Positions 30,471-58,966 of a stretch of 64,000 nucleotides of DNA are shown piece after piece. The DNA is taken from positions 62,001 through 126,000 of the forward strand of contig JAIPUR010000002.1 in assembly GCA_020055655.1 (NCBI GenBank), read 5' to 3'. The notes under the pieces were generated by a model. The model ran no database searches and was not told the origin of the DNA. It saw nothing but the letters and a program-made list of their open reading frames with translations. The DNA comes from Methanosarcinaceae archaeon (GTDB lineage Archaea; Halobacteriota; Methanosarcinia; Methanosarcinales; Methanosarcinaceae). Position 1 is the stretch's first letter; each line of letters begins with the position of its first letter. A program made the translations under genes and the position numbers.

Positions 30471-33400
30471 ATGCATTCCTTCACAAAAAACGATATGGTT
30501 AATAGATTATTGAACAGTTTCAGGGTACTTGTCTGCATATCAATAGTGATGTCGGTATTTAATCCTGTACTGATAGCAAGCGCTTCTTCTGGTTCAGTTC
30601 TTTCAGTAGACAGCGATACAGTTGATGTAGGAAACACATCTGTAGTTCGGATCTCACTTGGAAATTGCAGCAATGTTACGAATTTGAGTTTTACTTTGAG
30701 TTTTAATGAATCAGTACTTGAATTCATTGATGCTCAGAATCACAGTGGTGTTACAGGTGCTATAAGTAACACAAGTTCATTGGGTAGCGTTGATGTTGAA
30801 CTAAATGGAATGGATAATTTCACCGCAAGTTCAAGCGCTCCTATTATAGATGTGAGTTTTAAAGGAAATGAAAGTGGAATCTCCAGTCTTGACTTCACAA
30901 GCGCAAGTCTGACAACTACAGAGGGTCCGTATTCTCCATCTGTTGGTACTGGTAATATTACTGTTAATGCTGTAGCAGCTCCAACTAACAGTGCTCCCAA
31001 AATTGTAGAAATTGGAAACAAGACAGTCAATGAAACTGAACTTCTTAGTTTCACCATCTCTGCAACAGATGCAGAAGACGATGAACTAACATATTCTGCT
31101 CCAAGTATACCCACTGGTGCAGAATTCAATGCTTCAAATCGGACCTTCAGCTGGACTCCAGCTACTGGTAGGAATGACACTTATGATGTAACTTTCAATG
31201 TCACTGATAATATAAACGATCCTGTTAGTGAAACTATTACAATTACTGTGAATACAAAAGCAGCAGTTCCTGTTGTTTACAATCCGCCAAATCCAGTAAA
31301 CTTTGCAAACACGACTGGAAATTTCTGGGTTAATCACACATGGGAATCAGGCAATGGTAATATCACAGACTCTTACAATGTGACTTATAATGGAACCTGG
31401 CACAATGGTACAAGTTCCGAATTTAATACTACAGATCTTAATGCCCACGACTGGTCAAACATAACAGTTTATGCTTACAATAACACAAGCTCAACACTTT
31501 CATCTGGTGTGGATGTGAATGTTCAGATTCCTAATAATGATATAAGCATCATTGATGTTCCACTTTCTCTTTCAGTTAATGAAGGTGTGAACATTCCAGT
31601 TGATGCTAATTTCACTGATGCTGACTTTGACTCTCCAATTTTCAACTGTAACCGTACTGATCTATTTACAGATTTTGACACATCTACAGGTACTGGAAAC
31701 TGGACTACAAATGATGGTGATGCAGGTACTTATCACATTGAATTCAATGTTTCAGATGGGTACGCTTCCAGTGTTTCTCATGTAATGATAATTACAGTTA
31801 ATGAATCGATGTATACACCCGCAGAACCTATGAACTTTGCAAACACGACTGGAAATTTCTGGGTTCATCACACATGGGAAGCAGGCAATGGTAATGTTTC
31901 GGATTCATATAATTTGAGTTATAATGGAACCTGGCACAATGGTACAAGTTCCGAATTTAATACCACTGGTCTTAGTGCCCACGACTGGTCAAACATAACA
32001 GTTTATGCTTACAATGCTACCAGCTCAACACTTTCATCTGGTGTGGATGTGAATGTTCAGATTCCTAATAATGATATAAGCATCATGGGCGTTACACCTT
32101 ACATCTCGGTAGCAAAAGGTCAGGAAATACTCGTCGATGTAAATTCCACTGATCTCGATGGTGATGCTCCAACATTTTCCTGCAATAGCAGCTTGTTTGA
32201 TTTTGACGAATCTAATGGTATTGGTAGCTGGACTCCCAAGCATAAGGACGCAGGAACTCATTATATTGAGTTCAGTGTATTTGATGAATATGGTTCCAGT
32301 GATTCTGCTATAATGATGGTAACGATCAATGAGGAAATATACACCCCTGGGAAGCCAGAGGGTTTTGTTAACACAACCGGTAACTTCTGGGTACTTCATG
32401 ACTGGGAAGCAGGCACTGGTGATGTTTCGGATTCATATAATTTGAGTTACAATGGAACCTGGCACAATGGTACAAGTTCCGAATTTAATACTACGGATCT
32501 TAATGCCCACGACTGGTCAAACATAACAGTTTATGCTTACAATGCTACCAGCTCAACACTTTCATCTGGTGTAGATGTGAATGTTCAGATTCCTAATAAT
32601 GAGGAGATCATTCTCAATGTTCCATTTTCCGACTCCGTGGAAGAAAATAAAACAATCTTCGTGGATGTTAATCACACAGATATTGACGGTGATACTCCTA
32701 CTTTCAGTTGCAACAACACAACTCTATTTGCAGACTTTAATCCAGTGGATGGTACCGGAAACTGGACTCCTGGCTTTGATGATGAAGGTGTTCATTATGT
32801 GGAATTTGGAGTGAGCGATGGATTTGGTTTGCCTGCCACTCAAGTTATAGCAATTACTGTAACAAATGTCAATCGTGCACCACAAATGAATGCTCCCTCA
32901 CAGGTTACAGTTAGTGAAAATGACACACTTGTAATTCCTCTTGGAGCATTTGATCCAGATGGGGATGAATTGGCATACTCCTCAGATTTCGGTAACGGTT
33001 CAATAATCGATGGTAATTTTACCTGGAATACCGACTTTGAGTCCAATGGTACTTACAACGTTGAATTTACTGCTACAGATGGTGAACTTGGTGCAAGTCA
33101 GTCTACTGGTATAAATGTGCTGAACACAAATCGTGCTCCAGCCCTTGAATCAATTGGTGATCAGATAATCACAGAAGGTGACACTCTTACCCTTGATCTT
33201 AATGCCAGTGATCTTGATGGTGATTCCCTTACATTTGGAACCAATGCAAGTTCTGGTACCCTTAGCGATGACATCTTCACCTGGGTAACCGACTTCGATG
33301 ATTCCGGTGTTTACACTGTCGAGTTCAATGTAACCGATGATATCGATGTTGTTAGTGAAATCATAACAATAACAGTCAATAATAACAACCGTGCTCCAAC

Positions 33401-33623
33401 CCTTGAATCAATTGCTGATCAGATTATTACAGAAGGTGACACTCTTACCCTTGATCTTAATGCCAGTGATCTTGATGGTGATTCCCTTACATTTGGAACC
33501 AATGCAAGTTCTGGTACCCTTAGCGATGACATCTTCACTTGGACTCTTGGCTTTGATGATGAAGGTGTTCATTATGTGGAATTTGGAGTGACCGATGAAT
33601 TTGGTTTGTCTGTCACATCATAG
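30471..33623 (+). CDS. Large repeat-built surface protein, 5' part (broken by frameshift at 33617-33623)
   Basis: Codes for 1050 residues: a signal peptide (residues about 10-40), a cohesin-like domain (about 43-170), then alternating Ig-like domains. Three near-identical modules carry NTTGNFWV...SYN...NGTWHNGTSSEFNTT...HDWSNITVYAYN; they are linked to cadherin/PIG-type domains with repeated DxDGD and GNWT/FTW signatures. N-glycosylation sequons are very dense. TAG 33621 ends the frame in the middle of a domain, while the same protein continues in the -1 frame to 35797. ATG 30471 has GGGTGGG upstream; GTG 30462 is possible. It is probably an anchored S-layer-associated or adhesion protein. 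Confidence 0.8.
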   Translation: MHSFTKNDMVNRLLNSFRVLVCISIVMSVFNPVLIASASSGSVLSVDSDTVDVGNTSVVRISLGNCSNVTNLSFTLSFNESVLEFIDAQNHSGVTGAISNTSSLGSVDVELNGMDNFTASSSAPIIDVSFKGNESGISSLDFTSASLTTTEGPYSPSVGTGNITVNAVAAPTNSAPKIVEIGNKTVNETELLSFTISATDAEDDELTYSAPSIPTGAEFNASNRTFSWTPATGRNDTYDVTFNVTDNINDPVSETITITVNTKAAVPVVYNPPNPVNFANTTGNFWVNHTWESGNGNITDSYNVTYNGTWHNGTSSEFNTTDLNAHDWSNITVYAYNNTSSTLSSGVDVNVQIPNNDISIIDVPLSLSVNEGVNIPVDANFTDADFDSPIFNCNRTDLFTDFDTSTGTGNWTTNDGDAGTYHIEFNVSDGYASSVSHVMIITVNESMYTPAEPMNFANTTGNFWVHHTWEAGNGNVSDSYNLSYNGTWHNGTSSEFNTTGLSAHDWSNITVYAYNATSSTLSSGVDVNVQIPNNDISIMGVTPYISVAKGQEILVDVNSTDLDGDAPTFSCNSSLFDFDESNGIGSWTPKHKDAGTHYIEFSVFDEYGSSDSAIMMVTINEEIYTPGKPEGFVNTTGNFWVLHDWEAGTGDVSDSYNLSYNGTWHNGTSSEFNTTDLNAHDWSNITVYAYNATSSTLSSGVDVNVQIPNNEEIILNVPFSDSVEENKTIFVDVNHTDIDGDTPTFSCNNTTLFADFNPVDGTGNWTPGFDDEGVHYVEFGVSDGFGLPATQVIAITVTNVNRAPQMNAPSQVTVSENDTLVIPLGAFDPDGDELAYSSDFGNGSIIDGNFTWNTDFESNGTYNVEFTATDGELGASQSTGINVLNTNRAPALESIGDQIITEGDTLTLDLNASDLDGDSLTFGTNASSGTLSDDIFTWVTDFDDSGVYTVEFNVTDDIDVVSEIITITVNNNNRAPTLESIADQIITEGDTLTLDLNASDLDGDSLTFGTNASSGTLSDDIFTWTLGFDDEGVHYVEFGVTDEFGLSVTS
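31300..32607 (+). repeat. Three near-identical ~245-bp modules in the surface gene
   Basis: Copies start near 31300, 31831 and 32367, a period of about 530 bases. Each begins with bases for FANTTGNFWV or FVNTTGNFWV and ends at VNVQIPNN. They differ by only a few codons, while the domains between them have diverged. This indicates recent duplication or gene conversion of the module itself. Confidence 0.8.
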
Positions 33624-33870
33624 TTATAACAATTAATAATAACAACCGTGCTCCAGAGATACCAGAAATCTCAGATGTAACAGCTTACGAAAACAAAACA
33701 CTTGTAATTCCCATTGGAGCATTTGATCAAGATGGTGATGAACTGACCTACTCCTTTGATTTCGGGAACGGTTCAATAATCGATGGTAATTTTACCTGGA
33801 ATACCGACTTTGAGTCCAATGGTACTTACAACGTTGAATTTACTGCTACAGATGGTGAACTTGATGCAAA
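32773..33870 (+). repeat. Mosaic of duplicated Ig-like segments around the frameshift
   Basis: Segments 33131-33282 and 33392-33542 are almost identical. So are 32773-32835 with 33548-33610, and 32988-33090 with 33768-33870. The block pattern A-B-C-C'-A'-B' shows that the stretch after about 33390 was built from the earlier copy. The frameshift falls at the boundary of copied block A'. Confidence 0.75.
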
Positions 33871-35797
33871 TCAGTCCGTTACTATAACTGTATTGAATGT
33901 AAATCGTGCTCCTACACTTCCATATATTAAAAGCGTTTCAGTGAATGAAACTGAACCTGTAAACATTACTCTTGTCGCATCTGATCCCGATGATGACTTC
34001 CCTCTGTACTATTACAAAAATGTAAGTTTTGGTGAGCTTGATAATAATGTTTTCACATGGGTTCCAACTGTTAATGACAAAGGAATCTATCACGTAAATT
34101 TCACTGTAAGTGATGGTGAGCTTTTTGATTCAAGAGTGGTTCTAATTGCAGTAAATAATACAAATGTTGCACCTCAATTCACTCCAATTGGCATTCAGAA
34201 TGGAACCGAAGGCTCAGAAATTTCATTCACTGTTACTGCAACTGATATAGATTCTGAAGATGAACTAACTTATATTCATTCAGGTGCACCGTCAACTGCA
34301 AAAATATCTTCAAATGCTACTGCAATTAAATTCACATGGACTCCTGACTTTGATGAATCAGGTCTATATTCTGTGCAGTTTATAGTTGAAGATAATCTAG
34401 GTTTTTCAGATACCATGGTGGTTCCAATAAACATCAGTAATTTGAATCGTGCACCTGCATTCAACTCACTTAATCCCAGTTACACAATAAACGAAAGTGA
34501 AACACTGACAATCAATCTTGGAGCCAATGATCCGGATACTGATCAGACAGTGTCTGTATGGATAAACGATTCCGGTAACACTACAGGTACACTTTCCGGC
34601 GATGCATACACATGGAATACCGATTATCTTGACAGTGGCACTTACAATATGGAATTTGTAGTTTCAGATGGTGTTGTGAACACTTCAGGCACAACTAGTA
34701 TAGTTGTAAATGACGTAAATGCGCCACCAGTCCTTAACTACATTTCATCAAAGTCAGTAACGGAAACCGAGAATCTTCAATTTACTATAAATGCAACAGA
34801 TGTGTATGACAATGATTCTCTTAGCTACTCAGCTGCAGGATTGCCAAACGGTTCAACATTCAACAATATCAGTCATGTTTTCAGCTGGACTCCTGCTGAT
34901 GGTCAAAAAGGAACATACACAATACAATTCAATGTAACTGATGGTACAGACTTTGATAATCAGAATGTTTCAATAACAGTGCTGGAAAGTGAAGTCGCAA
35001 GCAAGCCTACATCAAGTGGTGGCGGCGGCGGAGGCGGTGGCTCACAGAATACAGGTGAGGAATTCGAGAATATTGATTTCAAGGATTATGCTATCAAATC
35101 CGTTGTAAAGGATAGAAATACTGTCTTCAACTTTGTAAAAGAGGATAATAGTATAATCTCTTTAAGCTTTATTTCATCCCTCAACGGTGGTCAGACCAAA
35201 ACCATAATCGAAGCTCTCAAGGATACATCATCTCTTGTATCGGGACCTGCACCAGGTAATGTATACAAGAATATGAATATCTGGGTTGGTGACGGTAAAT
35301 TCGTACCTGCTATGGTATCTGATGCAAAGATCATGTTCAAGGTTGATAAGGTCTGGATGGAGGAAAATCAAATCGATCCTTCATCTATCAGTCTATGCAG
35401 GTATTCCGGATCATGGGATATACTTAAGACTACATCTACCGGAGAGGATGAGGTATATGCATACTTCATTGCAGAGTCACCAGGATTCTCTCCATTTGCC
35501 ATCTCGTCTGTAAATGAATGGGATCTAGAAGCTCTTGACCCGGAGTCTGAAAAACTTCCTGCAGTATCAGAAAATGTAGAGCAGCAAATGAGTTCAACAG
35601 TTGATGATACGGTTCCTGTGCAAGCAAATGCAGAGAATCAGGAAACAAAGAGTCCTTCCATTGCGCTTCCTATTATAATTCTGATAGGAGTTCTTGGAAT
35701 TATATTCTATGGTTACAAGAAAAGAGATTACTATTCCAAGGTTCGCACACAACTTGGTAACCCGGATGGTAAGCGCTACAGGCGTATAAAGCGTTGA
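33617..35797 (+). pseudogene. Surface protein, 3' part in the -1 frame, with PGF-pre-PGF domain and membrane anchor
   Basis: Reading in the -1 frame from 33617 continues the Ig-like repeat without a stop for about 726 residues. It contains four or five more PIG/cadherin-type repeats, a poly-glycine linker (SSGGGGGGGGS, near 35017-35043), then the PGF-pre-PGF domain found in archaeal surface proteins (ENIDFKDYAIKSVVKDRNTV... to SPGFSPFAISS). An acidic stretch, one membrane helix and the basic tail PDGKRYRRIKR follow. No ribosome site precedes any internal start, so it is the rest of the upstream gene. Joined, the protein would have about 1776 residues. A true frameshift, a recoding event or a sequencing error all remain possible. 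Confidence 0.75.
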
Positions 35798-35921: not shown

Positions 35922-38447
35922 ATGGTGGAAAGTGCTCAATACTTTAAAAAACGGTTCTTATCGGAAGATTTTTATTTATGGTCAAAAGCTTTTGGATCGT
36001 TTGTTTTATGCTTGTGCTTGTTCGTACTTCTTTTTACTAGCTCAGTTGCTTTAGCTGAAGCTGTAAATGTCGCTCCCTCATTGGATCTGATCGGTCCTAA
36101 AAGTGTGCAGGAAAATAATTCCTTGTCTTTCACCCTGCTAGCAACTGATGAAAATAATGATGCTCTTCAGTACACATCTCCCAATCTTCCGCAAGGTGCA
36201 CAATTGGATATAAATTCTGGATTTTTTGAGTGGATTCCTGAATACAATCAATCAGGATCATATCAAGTTGAATTTATTGCTTCTGAAGGTAATCTTTCTG
36301 ATTCTGAATACGTTGAAATCACTGTTTCCAATACCAACCGTCTTCCACAATTGCAGCCAATTTCTGACTATACTATCAACGAGACTGAATCGATTGAAAT
36401 TATACTCGTGGCTACAGATATAGATGGTGATATTCTTGAATATTCTAAATCTACTTCTTTCGGCTTGATCACAGGTAATAAATTTACTTGGACCCCATCC
36501 TATGAAAGTGCAGGAGAGCACACGATCAATTTTGCTGTTAATGATGGCGTAGATGAGGTATATCAGACCACTAAAATCACAGTTGAGAATGTGAATCGAA
36601 AACCTATTTTGTTTTCAATATCTGATAAGGTAGTTGCACCTGACAATACTATAAATTTTAGTCTTGAAGCATATGATTTTGATGGGGATAGCTTAACATT
36701 TTACAATGAAACTACACTTCCTGCCGGATCTTCATTCAACTCCGGATATTTTGCATGGACGCCTAGTAATGCCAATAACGGGGCGGAATATATGCTGAAA
36801 TTCAATGTTAGTGATGGCATTAATTATTCTGAAACTAAGGATATGAGAATATTTGTGGGGAATTCATCCCAACCACCAGTTTTCGAACCAATATCTCTTT
36901 CAAATATCCTTGAAAACGAATCACTATCATTCAAGGTGAATGTAACAGGTGTAGATCTATGGAATGATATGGTTTTACATCCAGATGGTTCATCTTATGG
37001 ACTACCATCTTTATTATTCGAATGGACCCCTTCATATGAACAGTCGGGAATTCATCTTTTAGAGTTCAGTGCTCAGGAAAAATCATATCCTGATTTTAAA
37101 GTTTTCCAGCATTTTGTTCTTGATGTACAAAATGTAAACAGAGTGCCGGAAATAGATTTTATTATCGGTGGCTCTATCAATGAAACTGAAATGCTTGTGA
37201 TTAATATCAGTGCAACCGACCCTGATGGTGACTCGCTTTTTTATTCAACCGATCCTTCACTTGGTAAATTTCAGGGAAATACATTCATCTGGACCCCTGA
37301 ATATTCTGACAGTGGTACACACATAATAGATTTTACGGTATCAGATGGCGAATTAAAAAATTCAACTCCTGTCACAATTAATGTAGAGGATACTAATATG
37401 CCACCTGAGCTGGATGCAATTGGGGCACAAACAGCATTTTTCAATGAAACTCTGGAATTTGAAATAAATGCTTCAGATGGTGACAATGATAATCTTACAT
37501 ATGCTGCCACAGGCTTGCCATCTGGTGCAAGTTTCAATGCCTCTACCCAGATCTTTTCCTGGAAAGCATTACCTGAGCAGGAAGGGGAATACACTATTGG
37601 TTTTAGTGTTAGCGATCAGGAATTTACTGATTATGAAACTATTCTCTTAACTGTGAAAGAACCTGTTGTAATTACTTCAGCCCCAAGTTCCTCCGGTGGT
37701 GGCGGAGGTGGCGGTGGTTCGCAGAATACTGGAGAGAAATTTGAGAATATTGACTTTAAGGAATATAAGATACGACCTGTTGTAAAGGATAAGGAAACCG
37801 TCTTTAAGTTCATAGAGCAAGATAACCCAATCACTTCCATTGTCTTCACTTCCAGACTGAACGGTGGTCAGGTAAAGACCATTATTGAAAATCTAAAAGG
37901 TCCGACAACTATTGTGGATGAAGTGCCTTCGGGTATTGTTTACAAGAACATGAACATCTGGATGGGTGATTCAAAGTTCTCATCAGATCTTGTATATGGT
38001 GCTGAGGTTGCATTCAAGGTTGAAAAAGAGTGGATAAAGAATAATGAAATAGAATTGGAGCACATCACTCTTTGTCGTTACTCTGGGGGTGCATGGGAGT
38101 ATCTGGACACCACAATTTCTGATGAGGATAATAGTTACGTCTACTTTACTTCAAAAACTCCGGGTTTTTCCCCATTTGCTATCACAAGCTTTGACCTTGC
38201 AGAATTGATATCTCAGGATCAAACTGTAAATTCGGTTGTTGATGACGTTGTCAGTGATACTCCTGAAAATACAGAGATCAAATCTCCTGATGAGCAGAGA
38301 TCACTTTTCTCTGTATTTGTACTAATGGGCCTGATACTCTTGCTTCTCGTTGGTGTTATGGGTAAAAGATATCATACAGATATCAAGGGGATGCACGCAC
38401 ACATTACTAACACGGATGGCAAACGATACAGAAGGATTAAACGTTAG
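35922..38447 (+). CDS. Second PGF-pre-PGF surface protein with Ig-like repeats
   Basis: An 841-residue intact paralogue of the preceding gene. Signal peptide with hydrophobic core at residues about 27-45; six or seven PIG/cadherin-type domains marked by FEWIPEYNQSGSYQVEF, FTWTPSYESAGEHTINF and similar; a glycine-rich linker (SSGGGGGGGGSQNTG); then PGF-pre-PGF (ENIDFKEYKIRPVVKDKETV to TPGFSPFAITSF), a membrane helix and the tail TDGKRYRRIKR. It lacks the cohesin-like domain and the NTTGNFWV modules. No ribosome site is visible before ATG 35922, so translation may be leaderless. It likely projects from the cell surface with its C-terminus in the membrane. Confidence 0.85.
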   Translation: MVESAQYFKKRFLSEDFYLWSKAFGSFVLCLCLFVLLFTSSVALAEAVNVAPSLDLIGPKSVQENNSLSFTLLATDENNDALQYTSPNLPQGAQLDINSGFFEWIPEYNQSGSYQVEFIASEGNLSDSEYVEITVSNTNRLPQLQPISDYTINETESIEIILVATDIDGDILEYSKSTSFGLITGNKFTWTPSYESAGEHTINFAVNDGVDEVYQTTKITVENVNRKPILFSISDKVVAPDNTINFSLEAYDFDGDSLTFYNETTLPAGSSFNSGYFAWTPSNANNGAEYMLKFNVSDGINYSETKDMRIFVGNSSQPPVFEPISLSNILENESLSFKVNVTGVDLWNDMVLHPDGSSYGLPSLLFEWTPSYEQSGIHLLEFSAQEKSYPDFKVFQHFVLDVQNVNRVPEIDFIIGGSINETEMLVINISATDPDGDSLFYSTDPSLGKFQGNTFIWTPEYSDSGTHIIDFTVSDGELKNSTPVTINVEDTNMPPELDAIGAQTAFFNETLEFEINASDGDNDNLTYAATGLPSGASFNASTQIFSWKALPEQEGEYTIGFSVSDQEFTDYETILLTVKEPVVITSAPSSSGGGGGGGGSQNTGEKFENIDFKEYKIRPVVKDKETVFKFIEQDNPITSIVFTSRLNGGQVKTIIENLKGPTTIVDEVPSGIVYKNMNIWMGDSKFSSDLVYGAEVAFKVEKEWIKNNEIELEHITLCRYSGGAWEYLDTTISDEDNSYVYFTSKTPGFSPFAITSFDLAELISQDQTVNSVVDDVVSDTPENTEIKSPDEQRSLFSVFVLMGLILLLLVGVMGKRYHTDIKGMHAHITNTDGKRYRRIKR

Positions 38448-55449: not shown

Positions 55450-56556
<1,107 letters not shown>

Positions 56557-57779: not shown

Positions 57780-58595
57780 ATGGCAACAAAAGCATGCATA
57801 ACAAAAGAGCCGCAAGGCCTTGGTTTCTTTGAGAAGTACCTGCCGGTTTGGGTGTTTCTATGTATTATTGCAGGTATCCTGCTTGGTAGATTTGCACCGG
57901 ATCTGGCATTATATCTGGATGGCCTGTCCTTATATGTTAATGGTGCACCTGTGGTTTCGATCCCGATAGCCATCTGTCTTTTCTTCATGATGTATCCTAT
58001 CATGGTGAAGATCGATTTTGCAGAGGTGCTACTGGCTGGAAAACATATTAAGCCTGTGGGCCTGACACTTCTTATCAACTGGGCAATAAAGCCTTTTACA
58101 ATGTACCTCATATCTATTTTCTTCCTAGGTACCGTTTTCCTCCATTTTATTGGTCCTGAAGCAGTTGACCTTGTAAAAATGCCATTTGGTCTGGACCTTC
58201 CTCTGGGTGCAAGTTATGGTGATGGGACCGTGGTACTTGCAGATGGTGTGAAAATGCTGGAAATACCACTCTGGCGAAGCTATCTTGCCGGGTGTATCCT
58301 GCTTGGTATTGCTCCATGTACTGCAATGGTGCTTGTCTGGGGATATCTTGCCAGAGGAAATGATTCTCACACTCTTGTGATGGTTGCCATCAATTCTCTT
58401 GTAATGCTTTTACTTTATGGTCCTTTGGGTGGATTCCTGCTTGGAGTTGGAAAACTACCAGTTCCATGGGAAGCACTCGCTTTGTCCATTGGTATCTATG
58501 TGGCTCTACCACTTGCTGCCGGATATATTTCCGAAAGCTTATTATTAAAAAGAAAGGTGAGGAATGGTTCAACACCAGTTTCGTACATCTGCTAA
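57780..58595 (+). CDS. ACR3-type arsenite efflux carrier, 5' part (frameshift at 58547-58551)
   Basis: The first 255 or so residues of an ACR3 (arsenical resistance-3) carrier: the start [36 protein letters not shown] near residue 77, and [19 protein letters not shown] near residue 178 with the conserved arsenite-site cysteine. About seven membrane segments are present. After LLLKRK the frame runs off into unrelated residues and stops at 58593-58595, while the remaining ACR3 sequence follows in the -1 frame. The cause is an A5 run where A6 would restore the frame. Undisrupted, the protein would have about 395 residues, a normal ACR3 length. Confidence 0.8.
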
Positions 58596-58966
58596 CACCA
58601 GTTACTATTATAGCCCTTCTCGTAACTCTTATTCTGCTTTTTAGCTTCAAGGGTGAAGTTATACTAAGTGAACCCCTGACAATTCTCTGGATAGCAGTCC
58701 CTCTTTTCCTGCAAACAGTCTTTATCTTCCTGCTGGGTTACACGCTCTCGAAAACTTTCAGGCTCAGTTATGAGGATGCAGCCCCCACTGCCATGATAGG
58801 TGCTTCCAATCACTTTGAGGTTGCCATAGCAACATCAACGATCCTCTTTGGTCTTTCTTCAGGTGCAGCACTTGCAACTGTTGTAGGTGTGCTTATCGAA
58901 GTACCGGTCATGCTGATGCTTGTGAGGATATGCCTGAGGACCAAAGGATGGTTCAGCGCTGCCTAA
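58547..58966 (+). pseudogene. ACR3-type carrier, 3' part in the -1 frame
   Basis: From the A-run the -1 frame reads [37 protein letters not shown]..., the standard continuation of ACR3 proteins, with the last three membrane helices and the conserved [18 protein letters not shown] block. The frame stays open to the stop at 58964-58966. No ribosome site suggests separate initiation. The break could be a real inactivating deletion, phase-variable slippage in the A run, programmed frameshifting, or an assembly error. Confidence 0.8.

Follow-up and report, generated by a model that had tools for sequence, protein, structure and literature searches.

A reading-frame break at a mosaic repeat unit in a large surface protein gene of a methane-producing archaeon

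The locus at 30471-35797 (+) holds a large, repeat-rich surface protein gene of a methane-producing archaeon that is split by a break of the reading frame. It lies in the window, meaning the whole analyzed stretch of 64,000 nucleotides (contig C22:62001-126000), which comes from a draft assembly of 48 contigs. The locus raises the question of whether the break belongs to the genome or to the assembly and, if it is real, whether it is a mutation, a switch, or a site of recoding. With the bases taken as assembled, we lean towards a real, recent, and probably incidental frame-disrupting change at a recombination junction in a fast-changing Ig-repeat surface protein. The degrees of confidence given here are judgements and were not computed; a switch or recoding share what is left after this reading and an assembly error.

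As assembled, the signal peptide and the anchor lie in separate frames with TAG 33621 between them, whereas 17 orthologs hold both in a single frame (Table 1). The ATG at 30471 fits the MHxFTKN start of relatives (MHPFTKN), and the alternative, mechanical start is GTG 30462. Frame 0 carries Ig-type repeats matching Big_9, He_PIG, and PKD_4 and terminates at its TAG after ...GLSVTS. A PDB sequence search with a single repeat unit gave only weak matches to antibody chains. The −1 (= +2) frame takes the same Ig repeat onward from ATC 33617 (IIVITINNNNRAP) for 726 codons, and the two frames overlap by 25 nt. This course of the frames in the assembled sequence, as well as the total of about 1776 residues, agreed with the preliminary description of the locus. 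That description also had the −1 frame reaching a PGF-pre-PGF anchor; the domain was clearly recovered (162 bits), while the anchor itself is a plain C-terminal transmembrane helix further downstream, and no PGF-CTERM signal was found at E ≤ 0.01. A chance overlap of ORFs was rejected, as both halves belong to a single repeat protein whose orthologs in relatives are intact. The idea that the downstream half is translated independently was likewise rejected, since no signal peptide of its own was found in this ORF (33599-35797) and the earliest possible start is the TTG at 33893.

Table 1. Coordinates in the window of the features of the split gene, its repeat units, and the neighboring gene
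Feature	Position	Strand	Remarks
Frame-0 ORF	30471..33623	+	Signal peptide, cohesin-like domain, Ig/Big_9-type repeats; ends at TAG 33621-33623; without anchor
Signal-peptide hydrophobic core	30525..30581	+	19-residue mean hydropathy 2.29
Cohesin-like domain (PF00963)	30600..30878	+	E 1.3e-4, 22.6 bits; slightly under the curated cut-off of 24.1
Unit A tail	32763..32839	+	Source-like segment for the second part of unit D, matching at 70/75 nt
First copy (unit B) of the 97-nt exact repeat	32994..33090	+	
Unit C head	33129..33281	+	6 differences in 153 nt from the head of unit D
Mosaic unit D	33387..33655	+	C-like over 33387-33539, then A-like from 33540 up to about 33619-33637; last 21 nt (33635-33655) the same as 33378-33398
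−1-frame ORF	33599..35797	+	Rest of the Ig-type repeats, followed by the PGF-pre-PGF domain and the transmembrane helix; earliest possible start TTG 33893
Frame break	33612..33637	+	33612-33622 in the narrower reading; coincides with the right end of the A-like block or lies close to it
Second in-frame stop TAA	33627..33629	+	Two codons past TAG (TAG TTA TAA)
Second copy (unit E) of the 97-nt exact repeat	33767..33863	+	773 nt downstream of copy 1
PGF-pre-PGF domain (TIGR04213)	35057..35506	+	161.9 bits in the −1 frame, against a cut-off of 28 bits; family match
C-terminal transmembrane helix and basic tail (anchor)	35651..35707	+	Downstream of the PGF-pre-PGF domain
Neighboring PGF-pre-PGF paralog, intact	35922..38447	+	Conserved in synteny; control gene, 841 aa, 0/19 orthologs broken

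PGF-pre-PGF proteins are present in several copies per genome throughout the genus. The split gene resembles the methanogen surface proteins of this family (TIGR04213) in its signal peptide, Ig/Big_9/He_PIG repeats, PGF-pre-PGF domain, and C-terminal transmembrane helix, but differs from them in having the repeats and the anchor in different frames and in that the PGF-CTERM signal was not detected. Its syntenic place is conserved across the genus, with a ClcB-type channel gene on one side and the 841-aa PGF-pre-PGF gene on the other. Orthology was called by this position and the domain plan; the repeat arrays are too divergent for unit-by-unit alignment. According to the ORF tables of the syntenic regions, 17 of the 19 readable orthologs, this genome counted, are single open frames (G001, G002, G003, G004, G005, G006, G009, G010, G011, G012, G019, G021, G022, G023, G024, G025, and G026), a count in which the N-terminal domain is unmatched in some genomes and some intervals hold two or three such genes. 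The intact orthologs range from 517 to 2575 aa, showing turnover of the array. The VARTIG hypervariable Ig-domain proteins of Thermococcales are likewise archaeal Ig-domain proteins shaped by recombination, whereas here tandem units turn over inside one gene; their description reports no VARTIG counterparts outside Thermococcales (PMC8416519).

Apart from this genome, the only broken case is G007, a single-contig assembly whose ortholog (L057 2660-4426, G007:C1) has an in-frame TAA; in this relative the anchor was lost independently. With two of 19 orthologs broken, compared with none of 19 for the neighboring paralog, there was no significant excess. Six further orthologs were unreadable, being cut by runs of N in G014, G015, and G016 (L055, L061, L070) or by contig ends in G008, G017, and G018. 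The gene is therefore hard to assemble, and its family gives trouble in assemblies across the genus. Candidate "recurrent frameshifts" in the first three of these genomes were rejected, as they are N-run scaffold gaps.

The break falls in repeat unit D, which is a mosaic of two other units. Its head matches that of unit C, the immediately preceding unit, at 147 of 153 positions and shares with it an exact repeat of 110 nt (33171-33280 / 33429-33538). Its second half matches unit A, 777 nt upstream, at 70 of 75 positions, and its last 21 nt (33635-33655) are exactly the end of unit C. All five changes between the tails of A and D are non-synonymous, a number too small to show relaxed selection. 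In a nucleotide alignment with unit A (32833-32882), unit D has two extra single bases around CACTCAAGTT and an in-frame shortening of 6 nt further on. Compared by inspection with unit C at the protein level, the junction is equally readable as 4 nt missing; both readings equal +2 modulo 3, and from one sequence they are not distinguishable. The net gain of two bases relative to a paralogous segment, as first proposed, was thus recovered against unit A, while the comparison with unit C supports the alternative equally. The proposed position at the edge of a copied block was borne out by the mosaic, and recombination as the cause is plausible in view of so clear a composite, although one sequence cannot tell the order of events (recombination and then the indel, or both together).

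The array at the break has a period of 258 nt as determined by TRF. Three more repeats of 300 nt, 80-87% identical and spaced by 528-534 nt, lie at 31288-32649, within the gene's first half, where the spacings of all exact repeats of at least 28 nt are multiples of 3.

No further stop was found in the 726 codons after the break. Since 3.3-3.8% of random substitutions create a stop, the neutral divergence accumulated since the break, if the break is real, is roughly below about 4% at the 5% level. The GC contents of the three codon positions were similar in the two halves (0.467/0.429/0.294 vs. 0.475/0.394/0.296). The open downstream frame and the alike codon-position GC therefore indicate that the break, if real, is young.

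The main rival to a real mutation is a base-level error of assembly or base calling, in which near-identical units, or mixed strains if the assembly is a metagenome bin, were merged with a wrong gain of two bases, while the true gene is one frame. We regard such an error as a serious possibility, though short of probable. The draft state of the assembly, the N runs and contig ends that cut the same gene in three relatives each, the fully coding appearance of the frames on either side of the break, and the occurrence of another frame break within the window, near 58540 in the non-repeat gene acr3, all point in this direction. However, stretches over the sampled positions 33600-33632 had no exact copy of at least 11 nt elsewhere in the window, and the nearest exact match is the 21-nt stretch that ends unit D. 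Because the break lies outside any exact repeat at these sampled positions, it is not the product of a simple misjoin by repeat collapse, nor is it inside a repeat of the kind that misleads a k-mer assembler. Upstream of the break, joining at the exact repeats leaves the codon register unchanged, and there is no homopolymer of at least 5 nt within 33501-33700.

The error rate elsewhere on the contig also argues against such an error. As a control, the window and six stretches of the same 180-kb contig (about 178 kb read) were compared with the ORFs of four relatives' regions. About 137 kb matched at no less than 50% identity, and one clear frame break was found elsewhere on the contig. This background predicts about 0.04 breaks for a gene of such length, although repeat regions are worse than average for assembly. 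Once the ORFs were inspected, the frame-break candidates at L091 and L092 proved to be an upstream overlap and shadow ORFs antisense to ribosomal-protein genes, and were rejected. A search of a plasmid collection gave no match.

The acr3 gene encodes an ACR3 arsenite efflux transporter (57780-58966) and is one base short at its break compared with two relatives, in which it forms a single ORF of 400/429 aa with 82-89% identity. The two breaks in the window are 25 kb apart.

Translational recoding, either by a programmed −1 frameshift or by reading UAG as pyrrolysine, would yield a full-length anchored protein as a minor product. In its favor, the frame shifts in the −1 direction and the ORFs overlap by 25 nt, a weak RNA fold lies across the junction (33610-33700, z −2.2, with 5 of 200 shuffles as stable), and PylS is encoded in the genome (TIGR02367, 398.9 bits). 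Nevertheless, no X-XXY-YYZ slippery heptamer was found at 33564-33623, and a programmed frameshift was rejected for want of both this motif and a homopolymer near the break. Pyrrolysine was rejected despite PylS, as readthrough of UAG gains two residues before the TAA at 33627. The alpha-fucosidase of Saccharolobus (Sulfolobus) solfataricus, the case that a review names for −1 frameshifting demonstrated in cellular archaea, likewise has two overlapping ORFs with the second in the −1 frame; it relies on a poly-A slippery site (review, PMC8211752), whereas the present gene has no slippery heptamer and intact orthologs are the rule. With complete orthologs that have no frame break to consider as well, we hold recoding to be extremely unlikely.

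The preliminary description suggested a possible on/off switch between anchored and released forms, that is, recombination between repeats toggling the two forms in a population. To follow the effect of recombination, six exact repeat pairs (44-110 nt) were reshuffled in silico and the ORF was computed after deletion or duplication at each. Five of the six pairs kept the break after both events. Only the 97-nt pair gave an ORF running on to the anchor, through a deletion that leaves 1517 aa. Its copies are 773 nt apart, which is not a multiple of 3, and the deletion restores the frame because the break lies between them. This pair, the wide variation in array length among orthologs, and the independent loss of the anchor by a nonsense codon in the single-contig G007 are what favor a switch. 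On the other side, the restoring event removes about three units, and no element makes it reversible; the 773-bp deletion is a predicted one-way repair route and gives no evidence of a switch. Furthermore, 17 of the 19 orthologs are intact, the other broken case is not a frame switch, and the proportion of broken orthologs is not in significant excess over that of the neighboring paralog. No hypermutable tract was found at the break, with neither a homopolymer in the interval given above nor a short-period tandem array by TRF. The suggestion of a switch was consequently not upheld, and we consider it very improbable.

Bacterial phase-variable contingency genes (review, PMC11868660) offer a comparison, in that display of a surface protein would be toggled by a change of frame; they differ from the present case, which has no short tandem tract or homopolymer, is seen in one assembly only, and would be restored by a deletion. 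The broader proposal that repeat recombination links domain number to anchoring, with out-of-frame junctions releasing the protein, the 773-bp deletion re-anchoring a shorter form, and populations carrying both, appears similarly doubtful and is given very little weight.

For the favored reading, a real and recent frame-disrupting mutation, the following course is proposed. Unequal recombination or gene conversion between units would have produced the mosaic unit by joining the head of unit C to the tail of unit A. Where the A-like block ends on its right, or close to that point, a small indel (net +2 nt), arising presumably with or after the recombination, would have put the last strand of unit D and everything downstream out of frame. 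The resulting 1050-aa product keeps the signal peptide, lacks a membrane anchor as assembled, and would be exported and released, so that the earlier suggestion of a secreted product is a fair one; the downstream half would probably be left untranslated. A later step is predicted, in which the two 97-nt copies would recombine, the break would be lost with the sequence between them, and an anchored protein of 1517 aa would result.

As an ordinary loss of frame, the break is of little import beyond annotation, where it would lead to the gene being annotated as a pseudogene or as two separate genes. Support from reads would make it a clear natural test of whether repeat turnover alters anchoring in methanogen surface proteins, with a product shorter by 773 bp as its prediction. 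Elsewhere in the window, a perfect 6-nt tandem repeat (CACGAC, 10.5 copies, 56473-56535) encodes the (His-Asp)n tail of a P-loop protein (374 aa) that has a GCICC motif. Since this repeat is in frame, changes by whole units would affect the length of the tail only.
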